Positions 4,569 to 61,215 of a stretch of 64,000 bases of DNA are shown here, in pieces (positions within the stretch are counted from its first letter, which is position 1; every line of letters begins with the position of its first letter). This stretch comes from Fundidesulfovibrio putealis DSM 16056 (GTDB taxonomy: Bacteria > Desulfobacterota > Desulfovibrionia > Desulfovibrionales > Desulfovibrionaceae). Below the pieces are notes generated by a model. It had not been told where the DNA came from. It saw nothing but the letters and a program-made list of their open reading frames with translations, and ran no database searches. The DNA is taken from assembly GCF_000429325.1 (NCBI RefSeq), contig NZ_KE386885.1, positions 337,958 to 401,957 of the forward strand. Direction: 5' to 3'. The translations under genes and the position numbers were made by a program.

Positions 4569-4775
4569 TCAGTCTTTCTTGGGAAGCTGGTCCGTTCCGT
4601 GGGTCTCGTACACGGCTTTCTGGGCCTGCTTGAACTCGTCCACGGTGAAGTCGAAGCCGTTTTCGCGCAGGTAGGCCCAGTTGGCGGCCGCGTCCTGGCA
4701 TTCGTTCACCTTGGCGCGAAATTCGGGGTCCAGGCGCATGCGTTCCATGTATGCAGTTGCGGATTCAATACTCAC
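4569..4775 (-). CDS. Nif11-like small protein
   Basis: A 68-residue protein with the Nif11 pattern: an N-terminal helix ending in a DPEFRAKV segment, then WAYLRENGFDFTVDEF. Nif11 domains occur as leader peptides of RiPP precursors and as stand-alone proteins of unknown role. This copy has no double-glycine cleavage site, no cysteine-rich core and no maturation or export gene beside it, so a stand-alone role is more likely than a bacteriocin precursor. The start is GTG at 4775 with AAGGAGG nine nucleotides upstream. Its neighbours are glnS downstream on the same strand and a divergent methyltransferase gene. Confidence 0.8.
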   Translation of the reverse strand: MSIESATAYMERMRLDPEFRAKVNECQDAAANWAYLRENGFDFTVDEFKQAQKAVYETHGTDQLPKKD

Positions 4776-4870: not shown

Positions 4871-4906
4871 TTGACGATTTAGCGAGGCATTAATAGACTT
4901 AGTCTA
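4871..4906 (+). promoter_or_regulatory. promoter with palindromic operator overlapping the start codon
   Basis: TTGACG (4871-4876), a 17-nt spacer and TAGACT (4894-4899) form a plausible promoter whose predicted transcription start falls on or next to the A of the ATG at 4906. The perfect palindrome TAGACTTAGTCTA (4894-4906) covers the -10 element and the first base of the start codon. No Shine-Dalgarno sequence is visible, so a leaderless mRNA under repressor control is suggested. Confidence 0.5.
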
Positions 4907-5652
4907 TGCAAATAACCACCGAGCAACGCAGCCAGATCGAGGCGTCCATCAGGGACAAGTACCGCAAGGTGGCTTCCTCCGCCGCCGGACTGTTCAGGTA
5001 TCCCACGGGCCAGGCCGGGCTTGACGGCCAGGGCTACGCGCCCCAGTGGCTCAAGCACCTGCCGCCTGCCGTGCTGGAGTGCTTCTGCGGGGTGGGCAAC
5101 CCGTTCTCCATGGGTGTGCCCGCAAAAGGGCAGGCGGTGCTGGACGTGGGCTGCGGCTGCGGCGTGGACACGCTGGTGGCGGCGGAACTGGTCGGTGAGG
5201 CAGGCCGCGCCGTGGGCCTGGAAATGTCTCCCGATATGCTGGGTACGGCCCGCCTGAACGCCCAGGCGGCTGGCGCGCGGAACGTGGAATTCGTGGAAGG
5301 CTCCGCCGAGAAACTGCCTTTTGAGGATGCCGTCTTTGACCTGCTCATCTCGAGCGGGGTCTACAACCTGGTGATCGACAAACAGGCGGCCCTGGCTGAG
5401 GCCTTCCGGGTGCTCAAGCCCGGCGGGAGGCTCCAGATAGCCGACCAGATGCTCACAGGGCCTGCGCCCAGTGCGCCGGGGGACGCCGTAGCCTCCTGGT
5501 TCACCTGACAGGGCGGCGCGATACCGGGAACGGCGTTCCTGGACATGCTCGCTACGGCAGGTTTCGTGAACGCGGCCAGCCACGGTGAGACGGGCTTCAA
5601 GAGCTCTCCCGTGACCATGGGGATGCACTTCAGCGCGCAAAAGCCCCTTTAG
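4906..5652 (+). CDS. ArsM-like SAM methyltransferase, selenoprotein (Sec at UGA 5506-5508)
   Basis: A 248-residue class I SAM-dependent methyltransferase related to arsenite methyltransferases. The SAM motif is [12 protein letters not shown] at about 79-90, preceded by a CFCGVGNP segment (Cys59, Cys61) that matches the Cys-containing GNP region of ArsM. The frame meets UGA at codon 201, but translation past it continues the fold: [18 protein letters not shown] corresponds to the GGAL...L..AGF block that in ArsM proteins directly follows a conserved, metalloid-binding cysteine. The UGA sits exactly at that cysteine, and a bacterial SECIS-like hairpin begins 16 nt later (5524-5542). Reading to UAG at 5650-5652 gives a normal family length. 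The substrate (As, Se, Te or other) is not known, and selA/B/C/D are not in the window. Confidence 0.85.
5524..5542 (+). promoter_or_regulatory. candidate bacterial SECIS hairpin
   Basis: A perfect 8-pair stem (one G-U) CCGGGAAC/GTTCCTGG encloses a GGC loop whose first base is 23 nt past the UGA. Bacterial SECIS elements typically place a small apical loop beginning with G roughly 16-37 nt downstream of the Sec codon, so position and loop both fit. Confidence 0.75.
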
Positions 5653-5660
5653 TGTCGCGA

Positions 5661-5734
5661 TTAAGGAAAACATGAACATGTTTTCCTTAAGCCATAAAAT
5701 GGTTCTCTTTGATTAGCGTCATACATGCTTGAAC
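5661..5734 (-). repeat. dispersed terminator-like repeat, copy a
   Basis: A perfect 14-bp palindromic stem with an AA centre (5661-5690, core ACATG/CATGT) is preceded on the minus strand by an arm containing AGAGAACCATT and, further out, GTTCA. It lies downstream of the minus-strand YibE/F gene and between convergent genes, so it probably terminates transcription from both sides. The same arm and core recur near 11.6, 22.7, 27.8, 54.0 and (degenerate) 61.3 kb. Confidence 0.75.
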
Positions 5735-22659: not shown

Positions 22660-22736
22660 GTTCATACAATTTACGAACCCAAACCAAGAGAACCATTAAT
22701 TTAATTTTTGAAAAACATGTTCATGTTTTTCAAAAA
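22660..22736 (+). repeat. dispersed terminator-like repeat, copy c
   Basis: Plus-strand arm starting GTTCATAC and including CAAGAGAACCATT, then a perfect 15-bp palindromic stem with TT centre (22705-22736). It is downstream of the methyltransferase gene in the same orientation and 32 nt before the rarD start. The rest of 22472-22659 holds GC-rich short dyads and no gene. Confidence 0.75.
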
Positions 22737-39320: not shown

Positions 39321-41071
39321 GCTGGGCACTGTCCCGACTCCTTCCGTTCGTGGCCCCGTACCGCAACCGCTTCCTGCTGGGAATCGGCACCAACGCCGCT
39401 GCCCGCGCCTGCGACCTGATCCCCATGATCCTGGTGGGCAAGGCCGTGGACGCCATCAACGCCTCAAAATCCGGGCTGATTCCCGGGCTGGACACGCTGC
39501 TGCTCTACGGGGGGGGCGTGCTGGCGTCCTTCGTGTTCCTGGCCGTGTTCCAGTCCGTGAGCGACTATTCCCTGGACTCCATGGCCCAGAAGGTGCGCCA
39601 CGACCTGCGGAACGCCCTGTACCGGCATCTCCAGCGCCAGGACATGCACTTCTTCGAGGAGCGACAAAGCGGCGACCTCCTGAACGTGGTCTCCTCGGAC
39701 GTGGACAACCTGGAGAACTTCCTGGCCGACGCCACCACCTCCACCATCCGGCTGGTCATCACCTTCCTGGGCACCTTCGCGGTGCTGTTCTGGATCGACT
39801 GGCGTCTGGCCCTTTTGCTGCTCGCGCCCATGCCCTTCGCCTTCGCCGCAGTGCGGACCTTCTCCACGCGCATCCGCCCCCGCTACCGCGAGGCTCGCGC
39901 CGCCGTGGGGCAGGTGGCGGCCATCATCGGCAACAACCTGCGCGGCATGGGGGTCATCCAGGCCTTCACCGCCGAGGAGGACCAGGCCCGGCGCGTGGAC
40001 GTGCAGTCCGCCCGCTACCGCGACGAGGCCATCGGCGCGGCCATGGCCCGCGCGCGCTTCATCCCGGTGCTGTACATCGTGGCCGGAGCGGCCTTCGCGC
40101 TGCTGATCTCGGGCGGCGGGTGGCTGACGCTCTCGGGCAACGGGCCGACGCTCGGCGACTACGCCACGTTCATCCTGCTGGCCACGCGCATGATCCTGCC
40201 GTTGTTCGTCTTCGGGATGCTCATCAACCAGTTCCAGCGCTCGGAAGCCTCGGCGCAGCGCATCTGGGGCGTGTTGTCGCTGGAACCAGCCATCGCGGAC
40301 AAGCCCGGCGCGGTGGCCCTGGACGAGACGCCGCAGTCACTGCGCTTCGAGGACGTTCGTTTCGCCTACCCGGAGCGAGAGCCCGTGCTTTGCGGCCTGA
40401 GCCTGACCATGGAGCGCGGCAAGGTGATCGGCGTGGTCGGTCCCACGGGGGCCGGCAAATCCACGCTGGTGAAGCTTTTGCTGCGCCACCTGGACCCGCA
40501 GTCCGGGCGCATAACGCTCAATGGGCGCGATCTTGCGGACTTCACCCTCATGAGCCTTCGAAAGCGCATGGGCTACGTGTCCCAGGATGCGTTCCTGTTC
40601 GCGGGCAGCGCGGCAGAGAACATCAGCCTTGGCGCGCCGGACACCACGCCGGAGCAGCTGGAGGAGGCCGCGCGCATAGCCGGGGCGCTGGAATTCATAC
40701 GGGAGCTGCCTCAGGGCTTCGACACCCCCATCGGAGAGGGAGGCGTGAAGCTCTCCGGCGGGCAGCGCCAGCGCATCTCGCTTGCGCGCGCGGTGCTGCG
40801 CCGCCCGGACATCCTGGTGCTGGACGAGGCCACGTCCGCCGTGGACACCCGCACCGAGGAGATCATCCAGCAGAACCTGCACGCCTTCCGGGGCGACCGC
40901 ATGACCCTGGCCGTGGCGCACAGGCTGTCCACGGTGAGGCTTGCCGACGAGATCATCGTGGTGGTGGCGGGCGTCATCGTGGAGCGAGGCCGCCACGATG
41001 AACTGCTGGCCCAGAAGGGCGTGTACTCGGGCCTGTGGGCCGTGCAGAGCGGGGAAGGGCGGGGGGAGTAG
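39305..41071 (+). CDS. ABC exporter, fused membrane and ATPase domains
   Basis: A 588-residue half-transporter. Six membrane helices span residues about 15-310 (type IV exporter fold), followed by the nucleotide-binding domain: Walker A GPTGAGKST, Q-loop in GYVSQDAFLF, signature LSGGQRQRISLARA, Walker B ILVLDEATSA and switch His in VAHRLS. It resembles the MsbA/multidrug/lipid exporter class; the substrate is not deducible. The start at 39305 has no Shine-Dalgarno and is only 40 bp from the divergent rubredoxin start, so initiation may be leaderless or the true start slightly downstream. Confidence 0.9.
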   Translation: MRIASSWALSRLLPFVAPYRNRFLLGIGTNAAARACDLIPMILVGKAVDAINASKSGLIPGLDTLLLYGGGVLASFVFLAVFQSVSDYSLDSMAQKVRHDLRNALYRHLQRQDMHFFEERQSGDLLNVVSSDVDNLENFLADATTSTIRLVITFLGTFAVLFWIDWRLALLLLAPMPFAFAAVRTFSTRIRPRYREARAAVGQVAAIIGNNLRGMGVIQAFTAEEDQARRVDVQSARYRDEAIGAAMARARFIPVLYIVAGAAFALLISGGGWLTLSGNGPTLGDYATFILLATRMILPLFVFGMLINQFQRSEASAQRIWGVLSLEPAIADKPGAVALDETPQSLRFEDVRFAYPEREPVLCGLSLTMERGKVIGVVGPTGAGKSTLVKLLLRHLDPQSGRITLNGRDLADFTLMSLRKRMGYVSQDAFLFAGSAAENISLGAPDTTPEQLEEAARIAGALEFIRELPQGFDTPIGEGGVKLSGGQRQRISLARAVLRRPDILVLDEATSAVDTRTEEIIQQNLHAFRGDRMTLAVAHRLSTVRLADEIIVVVAGVIVERGRHDELLAQKGVYSGLWAVQSGEGRGE

Positions 41072-41110
41072 GCCGCACGAATACGGGTTGTGAGGCTATC
41101 GAACAAGGCT

Positions 41111-41130
41111 GAGGGCGAGGCGCTCTTTTG
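41111..41130 (+). terminator. probable terminator of the ABC exporter gene
   Basis: A 7-bp stem with two G-T pairs (GAGGGCG/CGCTCTT, 3-nt loop) running into TTTTG, 40 nt after the stop. Confidence 0.45.
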
Positions 41131-41197
41131 TGTAACAGATTGCAGCAGTGATGAATTCAAAGTGTAATTTCGTCCAAGCCAAACACGTCAGACAGAT

Positions 41198-42676
41198 CTA
41201 AAACTGGAAGTACAGAAACTCTGCATTGCTCCCAAGAGAAATTGTAACATAACAAAAGATCAAAACCGTTATGATCGCGTAGAAGGGGGTCGGCTTCCAC
41301 GAAATGAAAGATTGACCAGTCCATGTTGCGCGCTCGGAAAGATAGTTTTCAATGCATGGCTTGAATTTACACATGATTTGTTGCGTGTTGGGGAAGAACC
41401 AGGCCACCAGACAACATATTACGATGATGAGCGTCGCGCGCGGATCAAAGCTTCCAATGTCACTGGTAATCACAAACATTGATTTATAATAGGTTGTCAT
41501 GGCTTGAAGGTCTACAGCCCTGAAGGGGACCCAGGCCAGACAAACGAGTAAGAACGTCGAAAGACGGGCAAATGCAAGAGAGTATGCCCCGATTGATGCG
41601 GGTTTTGTTGACTCCCAAGCGTGGGTGGCTACCAGGAGGAGGCCATGGACACCTCCCCACACCACGAAAGTCCACCCGGCCCCGTGCCAGAGCCCTGCCA
41701 GCAGCATGGTGATCAACAGATTGATGTACTGATGGGCGCGCCCTTTCCGGTTCCCTCCCAGCGGGATGTAAATGCATTCCCTCAGGAACCAGGAGAGGGT
41801 GATGTGCCATCGCCGCCAGAAGTCAACGATCGACGTGGCTTTGTACGGAGAGTTGAAGTTTACGGGTAATTCGATTTTGAAGAGCAGTCCCAGGCCGATG
41901 GCCATGTCCGAGTATCCGGAAAAGTCGAAATAGATCTGGAAGGCGTAGGCCAAGCAGCCGGTCCAGGAGCTTATAAGAGAGATCACATGCCCGTCGGCCA
42001 CAGCTTGAAAAGCTTGGCTGGCGTAAGGGGCGAGGTTGTCTGCTATGATGACCTTTTTGAACAAGCCTAAAGTGAGCCATGTGAATCCGGTAGCCAGGTA
42101 AACTGGGGAATATGTGAAGAATGCTCTGGAATACAGCTGTTTGAGAATATGCTTGTACTTTATTATTGGGCCGGCAATGAGGTGCGGAAAAAAAGTGACA
42201 CAGAAGAGGTATTTTCTGAATGAGAAAAGCGTCACATCTTTCGACATCAAGTCTTTGAGGAAAATGATCTGCTGGAAAGTAAAAAAAGAAATTCCAAGAG
42301 GAAGAGCGATGTCGTGTACTTCGGAATGAATGCCAAAATGTGAGAGGATGTCCCGCAGGAAGAAATTCGTATACTTGTAGTAAGACAAGACAGCCAGATT
42401 TGTGATGACTCCAAACGCGAAATAATACCTTGGGCCTTTCTCAGTGTTTTTGTGGTTGTGGTGAGCATGGATTGCTTTGGCCACCAGATAGTTGAAGAGA
42501 ACGGAAAGAGAGATGATCGCAGTGTTTGTGATGTCAAACCAGCTGTAAAAGATCAGTGAGCACCCGATGACCCACCATTCCAGCCAGTGCCTGCCCAACC
42601 TGTCTGACAACAGAACAAAGGGCGTAAGCGCGAACGGGAGGAATACGAAAAGAAAAACATATGAATTGAAGAGCAT
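41198..42676 (-). CDS. MBOAT O-acyltransferase (AlgI-like)
   Basis: A 492-residue inner-membrane protein with about eleven helices that passes acyl groups across the membrane to a periplasmic glycan acceptor. MBOAT hallmarks: FFPHLIAGPIIKY (164-174), YFDFSGYSDMAIGLG (249-263), DFWRRWHITLSWFLRECIYIPLGGNR (285-310) and the active-site His331 in LLAGLWHGAGW. It is the last gene of a three-gene minus-strand operon with an SGNH/AlgJ-like gene and a one-TM gene. Base composition is clearly lower in GC than the flanking genes, and rare-for-this-genome A/T-ending codons are common, suggesting acquisition by transfer. The ribosome site is weak. Confidence 0.93.
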   Translation of the reverse strand: MLFNSYVFLFVFLPFALTPFVLLSDRLGRHWLEWWVIGCSLIFYSWFDITNTAIISLSVLFNYLVAKAIHAHHNHKNTEKGPRYYFAFGVITNLAVLSYYKYTNFFLRDILSHFGIHSEVHDIALPLGISFFTFQQIIFLKDLMSKDVTLFSFRKYLFCVTFFPHLIAGPIIKYKHILKQLYSRAFFTYSPVYLATGFTWLTLGLFKKVIIADNLAPYASQAFQAVADGHVISLISSWTGCLAYAFQIYFDFSGYSDMAIGLGLLFKIELPVNFNSPYKATSIVDFWRRWHITLSWFLRECIYIPLGGNRKGRAHQYINLLITMLLAGLWHGAGWTFVVWGGVHGLLLVATHAWESTKPASIGAYSLAFARLSTFLLVCLAWVPFRAVDLQAMTTYYKSMFVITSDIGSFDPRATLIIVICCLVAWFFPNTQQIMCKFKPCIENYLSERATWTGQSFISWKPTPFYAIITVLIFCYVTISLGSNAEFLYFQF

Positions 42677-42747
42677 AGCGAAGGTCTCAGCTGTCGGAGG
42701 TTGCTGGCTCCGCCTGGATGGCCTCAAGCGTAAGCATGATTGCTACG

Positions 42748-43722
42748 TTACTTTCCTGCATTAGGGGTCAATTTATGAGTGGTGAGTTCGAGTCGCTTGA
42801 ATGCAACCGCGTATTGGTTCGGGTCGTCAGGTGCAAACACGATGCTTTTGTAGTTCCAATCAGCATACGCTATGGAGAGCGTGTTTAGCCCTTGCACACC
42901 TTTGAAGGTGAATGTCAGCTCTGAATTTGCCTGAGGCCAGGGGGCAGGGTGTTCGATAGTGAAGGATTGAAGTGCCCCGTTGCCGTTGAAGGTCACGGTT
43001 TGTCCGGCAATAGGATTGTGGATCGTGCAAGAGACTGTGACTTCAAGAGGTTTATGTAGGACAAACGCGATCAATGTCTTGGGTCCCAGGCCCCAGCACC
43101 AATGAAGTGCACCATCTCTTTCAGGGGGCAACAGTCCGCCGACCTTGAAGTGAGGAGGAAGGATATGGCCTGGGCTGGCAAGGTCTACGGTAAATTGCGA
43201 CTGACGCTCCAGTTCAATTTTTTTGAAATGTAAGCTGACTGCGGAATCGACAGCGAAGTATATTCCAGCCACTAGCACAATTCCAACGAGATACACCGCA
43301 AGGGCGCGCATTCTGTAGCTGTTTAAGTGGCGTGCCGTTGTCCATGCGCGAAGTGCCTGCCGAGCCCAAAGTTTTAGCGTGGAAATCGTTTCTGGCATCG
43401 ACAACCGAATGTTGTCGTCGTGGTGGTTGAGCAGTCTTTGCGCGAACGTTCTTGCTTCGAGTTCGTGCTTGTTGTTCCCCATGCCCACGAGGTGAGGCGC
43501 TTGGCCATGGTCTGCATCAAGTCTCGCCCCAAATGTGATCCCCAGTTCGCCGAGTTCCACCGCCTTGATTGTTGCCTGGTCGAGTTCGTCACAGTCCAAC
43601 AATGCCTGCAACTCGGATGCTGCGTTAAGCAATGACTCAAGTGTCTTTTGTCGCTCCAGGTACCCTTGGCGAAGTTCTGGTGGGGCGAAGAGTGTGAGCA
43701 GAGGGTGCATGGCGCGCTTCAT
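42748..43722 (-). CDS. one-TM protein with C-terminal beta module shared with the glycosyltransferase
   Basis: A 324-residue protein, not recognised as a named family. Residues 1-135 are soluble and helical, residues about 137-165 form one membrane helix (MRALAVYLVGIVLVAGIYF), and residues 195-324 form a beta-rich domain exported to the periplasm. That domain aligns with residues 658-779 of the glycosyltransferase at 148-2487: HWxW near its start, NPIxGQ, a PGQNVLEFAY/LNTLSIAYADW strand and a shared YAVAFxRLEL ending. It sits between the SGNH-like gene (5-bp gap) and the MBOAT gene, and is likely an accessory or glycan-binding component. GC content is low, as for its neighbours. The start could be 43722 or 43710. 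Confidence 0.75.
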   Translation of the reverse strand: MKRAMHPLLTLFAPPELRQGYLERQKTLESLLNAASELQALLDCDELDQATIKAVELGELGITFGARLDADHGQAPHLVGMGNNKHELEARTFAQRLLNHHDDNIRLSMPETISTLKLWARQALRAWTTARHLNSYRMRALAVYLVGIVLVAGIYFAVDSAVSLHFKKIELERQSQFTVDLASPGHILPPHFKVGGLLPPERDGALHWCWGLGPKTLIAFVLHKPLEVTVSCTIHNPIAGQTVTFNGNGALQSFTIEHPAPWPQANSELTFTFKGVQGLNTLSIAYADWNYKSIVFAPDDPNQYAVAFKRLELTTHKLTPNAGK

Positions 43723-43727
43723 TCTCG

Positions 43728-44930
43728 CTATTGAGCGGTATTCCGAAGACGTTGAGGCTGGCTGAAAAGCATGTTGAAGTAGGCTGAGTTCTTAGAAGAG
43801 TGCAGTTCTCGTTCCCGGTGCAGATCGGACAGGCGGTTTTCTATATTTTCAGATGTGAGTAAAACGCCAAAATCTTGTACAGAGGAAGTCCCTGTGAGTA
43901 CTGTTTCGAGCATGATACTCCCTACTATTCTTTTGTAGTGAAATGGATCAGCGTAGTACTCGTTGGGTGTATACTTATTATTGTCGTTATAAACCTGGGT
44001 TGTCGTGATCGAATTGTACCCGGAGAAATCCCACAAGACAAAAAGCGGGCTTGGCAAGCTGGCGTTAGCGGTGGCTATCATGGTGGCCAACGCTCTTTCC
44101 CATTGGAAGTAGTGGGTCCAGAGGTTGTGCTTCTTAAAGATGTCGAGCATTATCGAGTGCACTGGGCTTATAAAAAAGTACACTTGGATATTCTCTTGCA
44201 TGCAATACATTAAAAAAGAGTGAAAATATTCCAGGGAAGAAGGTTTTCCCTGTGATCCGGAAAAAGAGTAATTCTGGTAATAACTGAGCACGCCAGGATA
44301 AAACGACAAGAAGATTTTTCCCTGGGCTTCTTGCGGAGTTGTTGTTGCTGTGGGTGCGCCATGTGCAATTGATGCGGTCTGAATACTCCCCTTGAGGCTG
44401 TTGATGCTGAGTTCTGTTGTCCCAGAAGCGAACATTTGTCGTAAGACGTCATTGATGAGCGTTAAATCTGACTTCCCAGGAACATTCAGAAGACGTTCTT
44501 CGTCCGCAGGGTTGAACACGCCCCCTGTCATGTTGAACCCAAAGAAATCGAGTCCAAAAACGATGCGTTTGACAGGGCGGATTCTGTTGGCGTGGCGCAC
44601 CAGATTTACAAGCCATGGGAAATACGCATGAGGCGTACTGACATTGATGCAATCAGCGTTGAGTTCAGGTGCGATGGCTGTGACATCCTCGCAAAAAATG
44701 GCCTGAACACGCGAAGATCCAACGATCAAAGTATCGTAACTCTTTGCAAATAATCGATATGGCTCTGTTATGTGAGCTCTCTCGTTTTTATAGTCGTTGA
44801 TGCCTTTGATGACAGGGGTTCTGAAAATGTTATATGGATCGATTAGTATGTTGAATCCGCCAAGAATCGCAAGACAGAAGGATAACAAGAGAGCTACTAC
44901 TGCAAGGTAGCGGGTGTATCGAGATTTCAC
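43728..44930 (-). CDS. SGNH-hydrolase-like (AlgJ/AlgX-type) periplasmic protein
   Basis: A 400-residue protein with an N-terminal membrane anchor (about 8-30) and a periplasmic SGNH-like domain. The nucleophile block is IVGSSRVQ (Ser72/73), a middle block is GLDFFGFN, FISPVH lies at 254-259 and the catalytic DxxH is DPFH (Asp328, His331). Proteins of this type partner MBOAT acyltransferases in alginate, cellulose or peptidoglycan O-acetylation and perform the final acyl transfer. It is the first gene of the operon; the start is GTG at 44930 with a GAGGTGA site. Low GC. The target glycan is unknown. Confidence 0.82.
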   Translation of the reverse strand: MKSRYTRYLAVVALLLSFCLAILGGFNILIDPYNIFRTPVIKGINDYKNERAHITEPYRLFAKSYDTLIVGSSRVQAIFCEDVTAIAPELNADCINVSTPHAYFPWLVNLVRHANRIRPVKRIVFGLDFFGFNMTGGVFNPADEERLLNVPGKSDLTLINDVLRQMFASGTTELSINSLKGSIQTASIAHGAPTATTTPQEAQGKIFLSFYPGVLSYYQNYSFSGSQGKPSSLEYFHSFLMYCMQENIQVYFFISPVHSIMLDIFKKHNLWTHYFQWERALATMIATANASLPSPLFVLWDFSGYNSITTTQVYNDNNKYTPNEYYADPFHYKRIVGSIMLETVLTGTSSVQDFGVLLTSENIENRLSDLHRERELHSSKNSAYFNMLFSQPQRLRNTAQ

Positions 44931-45026
44931 GATAAGGTCACCTCAGAGCGATATGCCTGTAGGCGTCGGGCAAGAGGTGTCTCTTGCCCGAATCAATATG
45001 ATAGGAAAACGTTGCTCAGTGCCGGA

Positions 45027-58418: not shown

Positions 58419-58874
58419 TCAGTGCGCTCCGCGCACATGCGGCCCGCCGGCCTGTGCGGTGCGGGCCTGGCAATCGGTATCCGGGCTCTCGGCCAGTTCG
58501 CGAAGGATCGCGCAGGAATCAACGGATTCGATGCGGCTGCACAGCCGCCTGAGCGACACCAGCTGCTCCTGCAGCTGGTGCAGCTGGGCGAGCCGCTCGG
58601 CCACGTGCTCGATGTGCTCGTCCAGGATGATGTTCACCTCGCCGCAGTCCTGGCCGGACATGCCCTTGAGCCGGAGCAGCGTGCCGATTTCGGCCAGGGA
58701 CATCTCCAGGGCGCGGCAGTTGCGCACGAAGCACAGGGTCTCCAGGTGGGAGGCGTCGTAGAGCCGGTAGTTGTTGGCGCCGCGCTCGGGCCGGGGCAGC
58801 AAGCCCTCGCGTTCGTAGTAGCGCACCGTCTCCACGGTGCAGCCAGCCCGTTTGGCCAGGTCTCCAATCTTCAT
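58419..58874 (-). CDS. MerR-family heavy-metal regulator (CadR/PbrR-like)
   Basis: A 151-residue MerR protein: winged helix MKIGDLAKRAGCTVETVRYYEREGLL, then a long dimerisation coil. Metal-binding candidates match Cd/Pb sensors: Cys77, Cys112 and Cys121, plus a Cys135 and a His-containing tail (HVRGAH). It should bend and activate the divergent promoter at 58898-58928 when Cd, Pb or Zn is bound. GGAGG lies five to six nucleotides before the ATG. It is divergently paired with the P-type ATPase gene. Confidence 0.92.
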   Translation of the reverse strand: MKIGDLAKRAGCTVETVRYYEREGLLPRPERGANNYRLYDASHLETLCFVRNCRALEMSLAEIGTLLRLKGMSGQDCGEVNIILDEHIEHVAERLAQLHQLQEQLVSLRRLCSRIESVDSCAILRELAESPDTDCQARTAQAGGPHVRGAH

Positions 58875-58897
58875 CGAAACCTCCGACGCGAAATGTC

Positions 58898-58928
58898 TTG
58901 ACCCTGTAGTTACTCCAGGGTGTCTAGT
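58898..58928 (+). promoter_or_regulatory. MerR-type promoter/operator of the P-type ATPase gene
   Basis: TTGACC (58898-58903) and TCTAGT (58923-58928) are 19 bp apart, the stretched spacing of MerR-activated promoters. The spacer holds the dyad ACCCT...AGGGT (58901-58905, 58917-58921), close to known CadR/PbrR operators. Confidence 0.85.
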
Positions 58929-59025
58929 TCTTCAAGGGGCGGGTCCGCCGCGCGACGAGGCGGCCATCCAGATCGTTCGGATGGCTCCGGCCCGGTCATA
59001 AAGCCCGCAATCCCGAAGGAATACC

Positions 59026-61215
59026 ATGAGCTCTCTGACGTTTCGCGTAAAGGACATGGACTGCGCAGATGAAATCGCCATACTCACCCGGGCGCTCCTG
59101 CCCCTGGTGGGGGAGGAGTCCAGGCTCGGTTTCGACATCATGGCGCGCAGGCTGAAGGTTGACGCCACCGGCCTTCTGGTGGGCGAGAAACAGATAACCA
59201 AGGCCATCGAGGCCACGGGGATGAAGGCTGAGCCAGTGGCCGAGGCCATCGGAGCCTGCGCCTGCTGCGGTGGCTCGTGCTCCGAAAGGGGCAGCTTCTG
59301 GGAGCGCCGGGGGCGCGAGGTGCTCTGCGCTGTCAGCGGGCTTCTCTGGGCCGCAGGACTTGGCCTGATGATGGCGGAGCACGGCTCCGCGCTGGCCGCG
59401 TTCCGGGAGAGCGCCTCCGCGCCGCTGGCCGCCAAGGCCCTGTGGATTCTGGCGGCGCTGTGCGGCGTGTGGCACGTGCTGCCCAAGGCCGCCTATTCGC
59501 TGCGCACGCTCCGGCCAGACATGAACCTGCTCATGGTGCTGGCCGTGTCCGGGGCAATGGTCATCGGTGAATACTCCGAAGGGGCCTCCGTAGCCTTCCT
59601 GTTCGCCCTGGCCAACCAGCTGGAGGCCTGGAGCGTGGGCCGCGCCCGCAATGCGGTCCAGGCGCTCATGAGCCTGGCCCCGGACAAGGCGCTGGTGCTC
59701 GCGCCGCTTACGACCACCCCGGTGGAGACGCCGGTGGAGGCCGTGCCCGCCGGAACGCGCATCCTGGTGCGGCCCGGCGACCGCATCCCCCTGGACGGCG
59801 TGGTGCGCTCGGGCGCTTCCGCCGTGGACCAGTCGCCCATTACCGGCGAGTCCATGCCCGTGGCCAAGGCGGCCGGGGACGAGGTCTTCGCGGGCACGAT
59901 AAACGCCGAGGGCGCGCTGGAGGTGGAGACCACCCGGCCCGCGTCCCAGTCCACCCTGGCCCGCATCATGCGCATGGTGGAGGACGCCCAGTCCAGGCGC
60001 GCCAAGGCCGTGCAATGGGTGGAGAAGTTCGCCGCCGTGTACACGCCGGTGATGGTTGGAGTCTCGTTGCTGTTCGCTGTGGTTCCGCCGCTCTTTTTCG
60101 GCGGGGCCTGGGACAAGTGGTTCTACGAGGCGCTGGTGATCCTGGTGATCTCCTGCCCGTGCGCCCTGGTGATCTCCACCCCGGTGAGCATCGTGGCGGC
60201 CCTGGCCTCGGCGGCCCGCAATGGCGTGCTGGTCAAGGGCGGGGTGTTTCTGGAGGTGCCGGCCACGCTTACCGCGCTGGCCCTGGACAAGACCGGGACG
60301 CTCACCCACGGCAGGCCCTCCGTCACCGGCGTGATCTCCCTGAACGGCACGACCGAGCAGGAGTTGCTGGGCATCGCGGCGGCCCTGGAGTCGCGCAGCA
60401 GCCATCCCGTGGCCCAGGCCGTGATGCGCCACGCCGCCGCCAATGGCGTGTCTTTGGCCCAGGTGGAGGACGCCCAGGCCAGGCCGGGGCTTGGCGCGCA
60501 GGGCGTCATCGGCGGAGCGGCGCACTTCATCGGCAACCTGCGCTTCCTGGAGGAATCCGGCAACGCACCCGGCACGCCCGAGCTTGCGCAGGCCCTGGAG
60601 CGTCTCGACCGCTCCGCCGCCACCGTGGTGCTGGTGTGGACCGGGGGCAGGGTGCTTGGGCTCATGGCCGTGGAGGACAAGGTGCGCCCGCAGGCTAAGG
60701 CCGCGCTGGCGGAGCTTCAGAGCCTGGGCGTGGACTCCATCGTCATGCTCACCGGGGACAACGCCAGGACCGCCGCGAAGATCGCCGCGCAGACCGGGGT
60801 GACCGGGTACCGCTCTGATCTTATGCCCGAGGACAAGACCCGCGTGGTGGAGGAGATGGTGGCATCAGGCAGGCGGGTGGGCATGGTGGGCGACGGAGTG
60901 AATGACGCCCCGGCCCTGGCCGCCTCGCACCTGGGCATCGCCATGGGCTCCATCGGCACGGACGTGGCCATCGAGACCGCCGACGTGGCGCTCATGTCCG
61001 ACGACCTCTCCAAGCTGCCCTGGCTCATCCGGCACTCGCGCCGCACCATGGGGGTCATCAAGGCCAACATCTGGTTCGCCCTGGGGATCAAGGGGGTGTT
61101 CCTGGCCATGGCCGTGTTCCAGGTGGCCACGCTCTGGACCGCGATCCTGGCGGACCTGGGCACGTCGCTGCTGGTGATCTTCAATGGGCTGCGCCTGTTG
61201 CAGATCAGGCGTTAG
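59026..61215 (+). CDS. zntA: Zn/Cd/Pb-exporting P1B-type ATPase
   Basis: A 729-residue inner-membrane pump. An N-terminal heavy-metal-associated domain has the variant motif MDCADE (11-16), followed by a Cys cluster ACACCGGSC (77-85) that can bind metal. Eight helices are expected. ITGES lies in the actuator domain, the ion-path CPC motif at 377-379, phospho-Asp in DKTGTLTHG (421-429), SSHP nearby, GDGVNDAP in the P domain, and a late Asp in LADLGTS typical of the Zn/Cd/Pb subgroup. AAGGAA lies six nucleotides before the ATG. Expression is from the MerR promoter upstream. Confidence 0.95.
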   Translation: MSSLTFRVKDMDCADEIAILTRALLPLVGEESRLGFDIMARRLKVDATGLLVGEKQITKAIEATGMKAEPVAEAIGACACCGGSCSERGSFWERRGREVLCAVSGLLWAAGLGLMMAEHGSALAAFRESASAPLAAKALWILAALCGVWHVLPKAAYSLRTLRPDMNLLMVLAVSGAMVIGEYSEGASVAFLFALANQLEAWSVGRARNAVQALMSLAPDKALVLAPLTTTPVETPVEAVPAGTRILVRPGDRIPLDGVVRSGASAVDQSPITGESMPVAKAAGDEVFAGTINAEGALEVETTRPASQSTLARIMRMVEDAQSRRAKAVQWVEKFAAVYTPVMVGVSLLFAVVPPLFFGGAWDKWFYEALVILVISCPCALVISTPVSIVAALASAARNGVLVKGGVFLEVPATLTALALDKTGTLTHGRPSVTGVISLNGTTEQELLGIAAALESRSSHPVAQAVMRHAAANGVSLAQVEDAQARPGLGAQGVIGGAAHFIGNLRFLEESGNAPGTPELAQALERLDRSAATVVLVWTGGRVLGLMAVEDKVRPQAKAALAELQSLGVDSIVMLTGDNARTAAKIAAQTGVTGYRSDLMPEDKTRVVEEMVASGRRVGMVGDGVNDAPALAASHLGIAMGSIGTDVAIETADVALMSDDLSKLPWLIRHSRRTMGVIKANIWFALGIKGVFLAMAVFQVATLWTAILADLGTSLLVIFNGLRLLQIRR

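Follow-up and report, generated by a model that had tools for sequence, protein, structure and literature searches.

A gene in the 64,000-nucleotide stretch of Fundidesulfovibrio putealis DSM 16056 DNA analyzed here (the window) probably encodes a genuine selenoprotein, an ArsM-like methyltransferase in which selenocysteine 201 (Sec201) would serve as the ligand for one soft substrate and in which that substrate would have changed from As(III). The protein belongs to a selenoprotein group that is already known, in which it represents a stand-alone form with one Sec. Sec-containing ArsM-like proteins and the fused relatives in the clade are already known and, as the original prediction noted, appear in published lists: a Sec-containing arsenite methyltransferase had been listed by 2008 (available text of PMC2398784) and was listed again in 2022 (available text of PMC9312934). 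A review, in its available portion, lists an "arsenite methyltransferase" selenoprotein with the motif UxxG, citing Fomenko 2007, an entry that may represent either of the two Sec types described below, and three fused families, ArsM-AhpD, ArsM-DUF2284 and MTase-UXPK-star, with Haft and Tolstoy 2025 as the source (PMC13188914). In our literature search, the coverage of which did not extend to Haft and Tolstoy 2025 and Haft and Gwadz 2023, we found nowhere stated the loss of arsenic ligands in the Sec clade, its near-exclusive use of Sec or the two origins of Sec in the sampled tree. According to the available text of PMC2398784, selenoproteins whose function has been established are for the most part oxidoreductases. 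The presence of Sec at a substrate-ligand position, with no Cys form among the best 80 relatives, suggests ligation of a soft metalloid or chalcogen rather than a redox function.

Conventional gene calling truncates the protein immediately upstream of its key residue: the standard open reading frame that starts at 4906 ends at 200 residues, as had been predicted. The reading frame also bears out the in-frame UGA of the original prediction, after which it stays open as far as a TAG codon (Table 1). The 248-residue read-through product matches the Pfam family Methyltransf_31 (6.8e-29), a SAM-dependent methyltransferase family. Eight window ORFs that end in TGA, picked by composition, are open for at least 30 codons further, and the extension of the methyltransferase gene has the clearest coding-like composition of the eight, with a GC content of 0.81 at codon position 3 and 0.53 at position 2; the corresponding values for the runner-up are 0.75 and 0.64.

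Table 1. Positions in the window of the predicted selenoprotein gene, its principal sites and the neighboring Nif11 ORF.
Feature	Position	Strand	Remarks
Gene for the putative stand-alone Sec methyltransferase	4906..5652	+	248 residues when the UGA is decoded as Sec201; ATG at 4906, TAG at 5650-5652
Cys61 codon	5086..5088	+	Aligned to CmArsM Tyr70 / AS3MT Tyr59
Val63 codon	5092..5094	+	Position of CmArsM As(III) ligand Cys72
Gly151 codon	5356..5358	+	Position of CmArsM As(III) ligand Cys174
In-frame UGA, predicted Sec201	5506..5508	+	Motif WFT-U-QGGA; equivalent of CmArsM Cys224
47 post-UGA codons	5509..5649	+	Amino acid constraint resembling that of the upstream part
Bacterial SECIS-like hairpin	5524..5542	+	8-bp stem (5524-5531/5535-5542), 3-nt loop GGC (5532-5534); CCGGGAAC-GGC-GUUCCUGG
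Nif11-domain ORF	4569-4775	-	68 aa; Pfam PF07862, 53.8 bits

The gene and its in-frame TGA are present in all seven genomes of the genus. A search of 59 genomes of relatives gave 12 best places, at 43-100% identity, with TGA at the Sec position in every one. Among 297 genomes of the phylum, TGA was found in 17/17 places scoring at least 270 bits (the window's own included) and a single TGA in each of the 19 places above 203 bits; the next 14 fetched below these (L148-L161) are Cys types, and lower in the list ten places at 159-173 bits again have one TGA each. A GTDB-wide scan matched 228 stretches, from which came 206 relatives, and the best 80 of these were retained, a few of them from genomes already in the 59-genome search. 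The scan used two patterns, of which one, [FY]CGVGNPF, covers positions 61 and 63; positions 34, 151 and 201 lie outside the patterns. The codon at the Sec position in the best 80 of the 206 relatives is TGA in 79 and encodes Gly in one; no Cys form was found there inside the clade among these 80, and homologs with Cys at this position were found across the wider ArsM family only. The Gly form (L104, isolate MASpbin.1) belongs to the clade, with GGA in place of the Sec codon and DUF2284 fused as a tail, and the same isolate carries a Sec copy (L130) besides it.

Amino acid constraint persists past the UGA and stops after the TAG. Homologs run past the UGA rather than ending at it, and the persistence of both similarity and constraint upholds the view that the 47 downstream codons continue the domain. 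An alignment of 11 sequences contains no internal gaps between the UGA and the C-terminus and has ten invariant positions after Sec. Across 14 pairs from the genus (L005-L006 was set apart because the two differ too little throughout to be informative), pN is 0.11-0.22 and pS is 0.33-0.71 over 46 post-UGA codons, and pN is lower there than over 100 pre-UGA codons in 13 of the 14 pairs; past the TAG stop, pN is 0.59-0.79. In the G006 MAG (L002/L052, 89-90% identity), 40 nt across the SECIS hairpin are missing, which results in a frameshift after the UGA, and L002 has a second in-frame TGA because this copy is frameshifted past the first. The 40-nt loss may mark a true pseudogene or may be an error of assembly at the hairpin.

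A hairpin with a 3-nt loop had been predicted at SECIS distance from the UGA, and such a hairpin is found there, its loop starting 24 nt past the last base of the UGA. It is kept far beyond the demands of the encoded protein. Of 88 distinct sequences, 85 retain at least seven of the eight stem pairs at the equivalent position, whereas 200 synonymous redraws gave 18.8 such sequences on average and never more than 29, a comparison that counts related sequences as independent. Synonymous codons were redrawn according to each gene's own usage, which separates RNA constraint from protein constraint. When the 3' arm is slid by 1-3 bases, 0-22 sequences pass instead of 85, and 87 of the 88 have a GGN loop. 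The 88 distinct sequences derive from 104 loci, L144-L147, whose hairpin has a different register, having been dropped beforehand, and include the Gly-bearing L104; the three exceptions are L002, from which the hairpin is missing, L012 and L123. The folding energy of the single sequence is unremarkable (z -0.81; 39/200 shuffles fold equally well), and folding energy alone was discarded as evidence for a SECIS.

The Sec machinery that the original prediction would require is present in the genome: a tRNA-Sec (83.9 bits, UCA anticodon) and SelA, SelB and SelD, with scores of 588, 366 and 335, respectively. The selD gene (L048) itself has one in-frame TGA. The tRNA-Sec is encoded elsewhere in the genome; ARAGORN found no tRNA in the 64-kb window, and an Rfam scan of the same 64 kb gave no family at the gathering score. 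Co-occurrence with SelA was dropped as a test for Sec, being non-discriminating: SelA was found in 22/24 carriers of the gene and in 23/24 non-carriers, the genomes without it (carriers G032 and G053 and non-carrier G063) being 79-85% complete assemblies. Because SelA is common to nearly all genomes tested, we regard its presence as only permissive. As judged from the sequence features described above, the UGA is very probably read as Sec to give a full-length methyltransferase.

The profile alignment, an AlphaFold2 model (mean pLDDT 96.2) and a Foldseek search with that model, in which the top match was an ArsM (E 7e-17) and ArsM structures came first among PDB entries, all identify the ArsM-type SAM-dependent methyltransferase fold. 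The window protein shares this fold, the SAM motif and the position of the last As ligand with canonical ArsM and AS3MT (PRK11873/NF008823; CmArsM 4FR0, CrArsM 5EVJ and human AS3MT 8XT7). It differs from them in the replacement of Cys72 by Val, Cys174 by Gly, Cys224 by Sec and Tyr70 by Cys, according to the profile alignment to CmArsM (4FR0), and in the replacement of Cys44 by Thr34, within an F-x-YPTG segment, according to one pairwise alignment; its score against the arsenite methyltransferase family NF008823, 174 bits, is below the cut-off of 263. The original prediction therefore stands in part. Its Sec insertion, as read from sequence, its fold and the alignment of Sec with the catalytic Cys of ArsM homologs are sustained, whereas an arsenite enzyme with a single Cys exchanged finds no support: Val63, Gly151 and Thr34 occupy the other ligand positions, and within the clade the exchanged position is Sec in 79/80 and Gly in 1/80.

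These replacements are general among the best 80 of the 206 relatives. Position 151 is Gly in 80/80 and position 34 is Cys in none; position 63 is Val in 79 and Pro in one, and position 61 is Cys in 79 and Val in one, although the scan pattern partly selected for the residues at 61 and 63. Unlike the window protein, 14/80 of the retained relatives have Cys29, five residues upstream of the position of Thr34. Some Sec members lack Cys61: L011 and L055 have Val there, and the residue in L146 and L147 is Val or Ala. One of the four conserved ArsM Cys residues (44, 72, 174 and 224) is kept, as Sec, and we have therefore filed the protein as ArsM-like rather than as an established arsenite enzyme; a survey of ArsM genes, in the available part of its text, accepted only proteins with at least three of the four (PMC5552862). 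In human AS3MT, C156 and C206 (the equivalents of Cys174 and Cys224) are needed for both methylation steps, and C156S and C206S are inactive on iAs and MMA; C61, the equivalent of Cys72, is required for the first methylation step, a requirement that is disputed because rat AS3MT is reported not to need it (available text of PMC3877260). In CmArsM, both Tyr70 and Cys174 are in contact with the SAM methyl; the AS3MT variant Y59A lacks activity (available text of PMC3790734). Since Cys72, Cys174 and Cys44 are replaced and human AS3MT needs the Cys174 equivalent, arsenite methylation by the known mechanism appears unlikely in the Sec methyltransferase, and so does the three-thiolate methylation of inorganic arsenite.

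It is doubtful, given the same replacements at Cys72, Cys174 and Cys44, that the protein is an arsenite methyltransferase in which Sec improves As(III) binding, although the ArsM fold, the nearest PDB relatives and the alignment of Sec with Cys224 would all fit with such an enzyme. Two of the three closest NCBIfam families are even named "arsenite methyltransferase/... selenoprotein", but the score against the arsenite methyltransferase family itself and the survey's threshold of three Cys residues both argue against such an enzyme. The reported dispensability of the Cys72 equivalent in rat AS3MT speaks for this reading, and the need for the Cys174 equivalent in human AS3MT speaks against it. 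The TsoR-like ArsR/SmtB-type regulators found near some relatives are compatible with a metal(loid) role, arsenic included. However, the genome also encodes a canonical Cys ArsM (L164:4785-5579, 344 bits, cut-off 263), which lies close to genes for an ArsR-type protein, a DGC protein and an Fe-S protein; from this setting we infer that arsenic is probably handled by the canonical ArsM and not by the Sec enzyme.

A comparison of 70 sequences separates two types. The 42 Gly-type sequences, 38 of which were chosen by hand from the clade with L104 not included, all have Sec and all lack Cys at the Cys72 position; all 28 Cys174-type sequences keep Cys72, and in three of them (L015-L017) the Cys224 position is occupied by Sec. 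In the tree, the Gly-type rows are on one side of a single branch (100/96), and two Sec/Cys changes are needed, so that Sec would have been acquired twice separately in this sample; the bootstrap was short of full convergence, and the alignment still included the Cys/Gly174 column. L015-L017 form a second Sec branch, with an LCCU pattern, inside canonical ArsM, and L015 is over the NF008823 cut-off (289.6 bits). They resemble the window protein in having Sec at the Cys224 position, but unlike it they keep Cys72 and Cys174, lie on a separate branch and have their own Sec origin. We regard as evenly balanced the wider proposal that the whole Gly174-type Sec clade consists of enzymes other than arsenite methyltransferases, in which Sec would be the sole essential substrate ligand and another soft nucleophile, such as a persulfide, a methylated arsenical or a species of Sb, Se or Te, would be methylated. 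Under that proposal, the arsenic site would have been dismantled to one ligand, which became Sec and was then retained. The automatic name "arsenite methyltransferase" may be wrong for this clade.

The closest named families are NF041537, NF041536 and NF047649, against which the window protein scores 328, 305 and 293 bits, below their cut-offs of 510, 575 and 460 because it lacks the second part of these proteins. The methyltransferase domain and the UxxG Sec motif are shared; the window protein differs in having no second Sec and no AhpD, DUF2284 or UXPK part. Two fused proteins above the NF041537 cut-off, L062 and L117, have Val/Gly replacements identical to those of the window protein. By simple pattern rules, the architectures of the best 80 of the 206 relatives are stand-alone in 49, a UXPK tail in 12, a DUF2284 fusion in ten and an AhpD fusion in nine, where stand-alone takes in the frameshifted L052, L119, which is cut by a contig end, and L124, which has an in-frame extension of ~260 residues that is membrane-like by eye.

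We propose a mechanism for the preferred reading, that of a selenoprotein with an altered soft substrate. The post-UGA hairpin would recruit SelB with Sec-tRNA, as suggested by its conservation and by the machinery in the genome, to give the 248-residue methyltransferase. Sec201 takes the position of ArsM Cys224, a metalloid ligand adjoining the SAM methyl. In place of the two other As(III) ligands the protein has Val63 and Gly151, and in place of the Tyr in contact with the SAM methyl it has Cys61. The Sec201 selenolate, together with Cys61 where it is present, would then most likely bind one soft substrate, for which a methylated arsenical, a Se, Te or Sb species, or a persulfide or perselenide are plausible candidate classes, and the lone pair of the bound substrate would be presented to SAM. 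By analogy, the chemistry is likely to be ArsM-like, with the lone pair of a soft atom attacking SAM. Methylation of mercury by a SAM methyltransferase is unlikely, because Hg(II) lacks a lone pair with which to attack the methyl group.

It is improbable that Sec201 instead has a redox or regulatory role, such as in a Cys61-Sec201 selenenylsulfide, with an unrelated substrate being methylated. Such a role would fit with the AhpD-type CxxU fusion in 9/80 of the retained relatives and with the DsbD- and thioredoxin-like genes near some of them, but some Sec members lack Cys61, and homologous enzymes have a metal ligand at the Sec position, adjoining SAM. Nor does the genus of the window supply the partner modules in trans: in its seven genomes, TsoB and GSU3128-type AhpD were each found over the cut-off in 0/7, and DUF2284 at E <= 0.001 in 0/7. 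That the UGA is a true stop, leaving a 200-residue protein or a pseudogene, is scarcely credible, since the standard ORF call that ends there and the close MAG frameshifted just past it are set against a conserved in-frame tail, UGA and hairpin, purifying selection after the UGA, the presence of Sec machinery and the fact that the residue matching the catalytic ligand would go missing.

The Sec gene is divergent from the Nif11 ORF and glnS, an order that is kept in 6/6 relatives from the genus. The Nif11 ORF lies between the Sec methyltransferase gene and glnS and is in the same place in all six, with 71-97% identity. DsbD-like, ArsR-like and rhodanese-like genes recur near relatives, by a loose neighborhood search (tblastn 1e-8) that would also match generic DsbD and ArsR; none of them flanks the window gene.

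A dispersed palindrome, AAAACATGAACATGTTTT, occurs at window positions 5661-5690, 11639, 22712, 27815 and 54057, five sites that give nine strand matches compared with 0.01 expected. Its flanks vary yet are self-complementary at most sites. Four of the window sites are between composition-picked ORFs, and that at 22712 overlaps one predicted start. Genome-wide, there are 38 forward and 39 reverse matches with up to two mismatches and none for a reversed-pattern control; among the other genomes of the genus, G006 has 31 forward and 38 reverse, and the remaining five have only 1-14 per strand. The palindrome may act as a terminator in both directions or belong to the REP-like elements. A low-GC island at 41000-45000 of the window (0.43-0.57, compared with 0.62-0.69 around it) contains what we take to be MBOAT-like and other cell-surface-type genes. 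At 58419-61215, a MerR-family regulator is divergent from a P-type ATPase, as assigned by Pfam, and the two are likely to be a metal-efflux pair.
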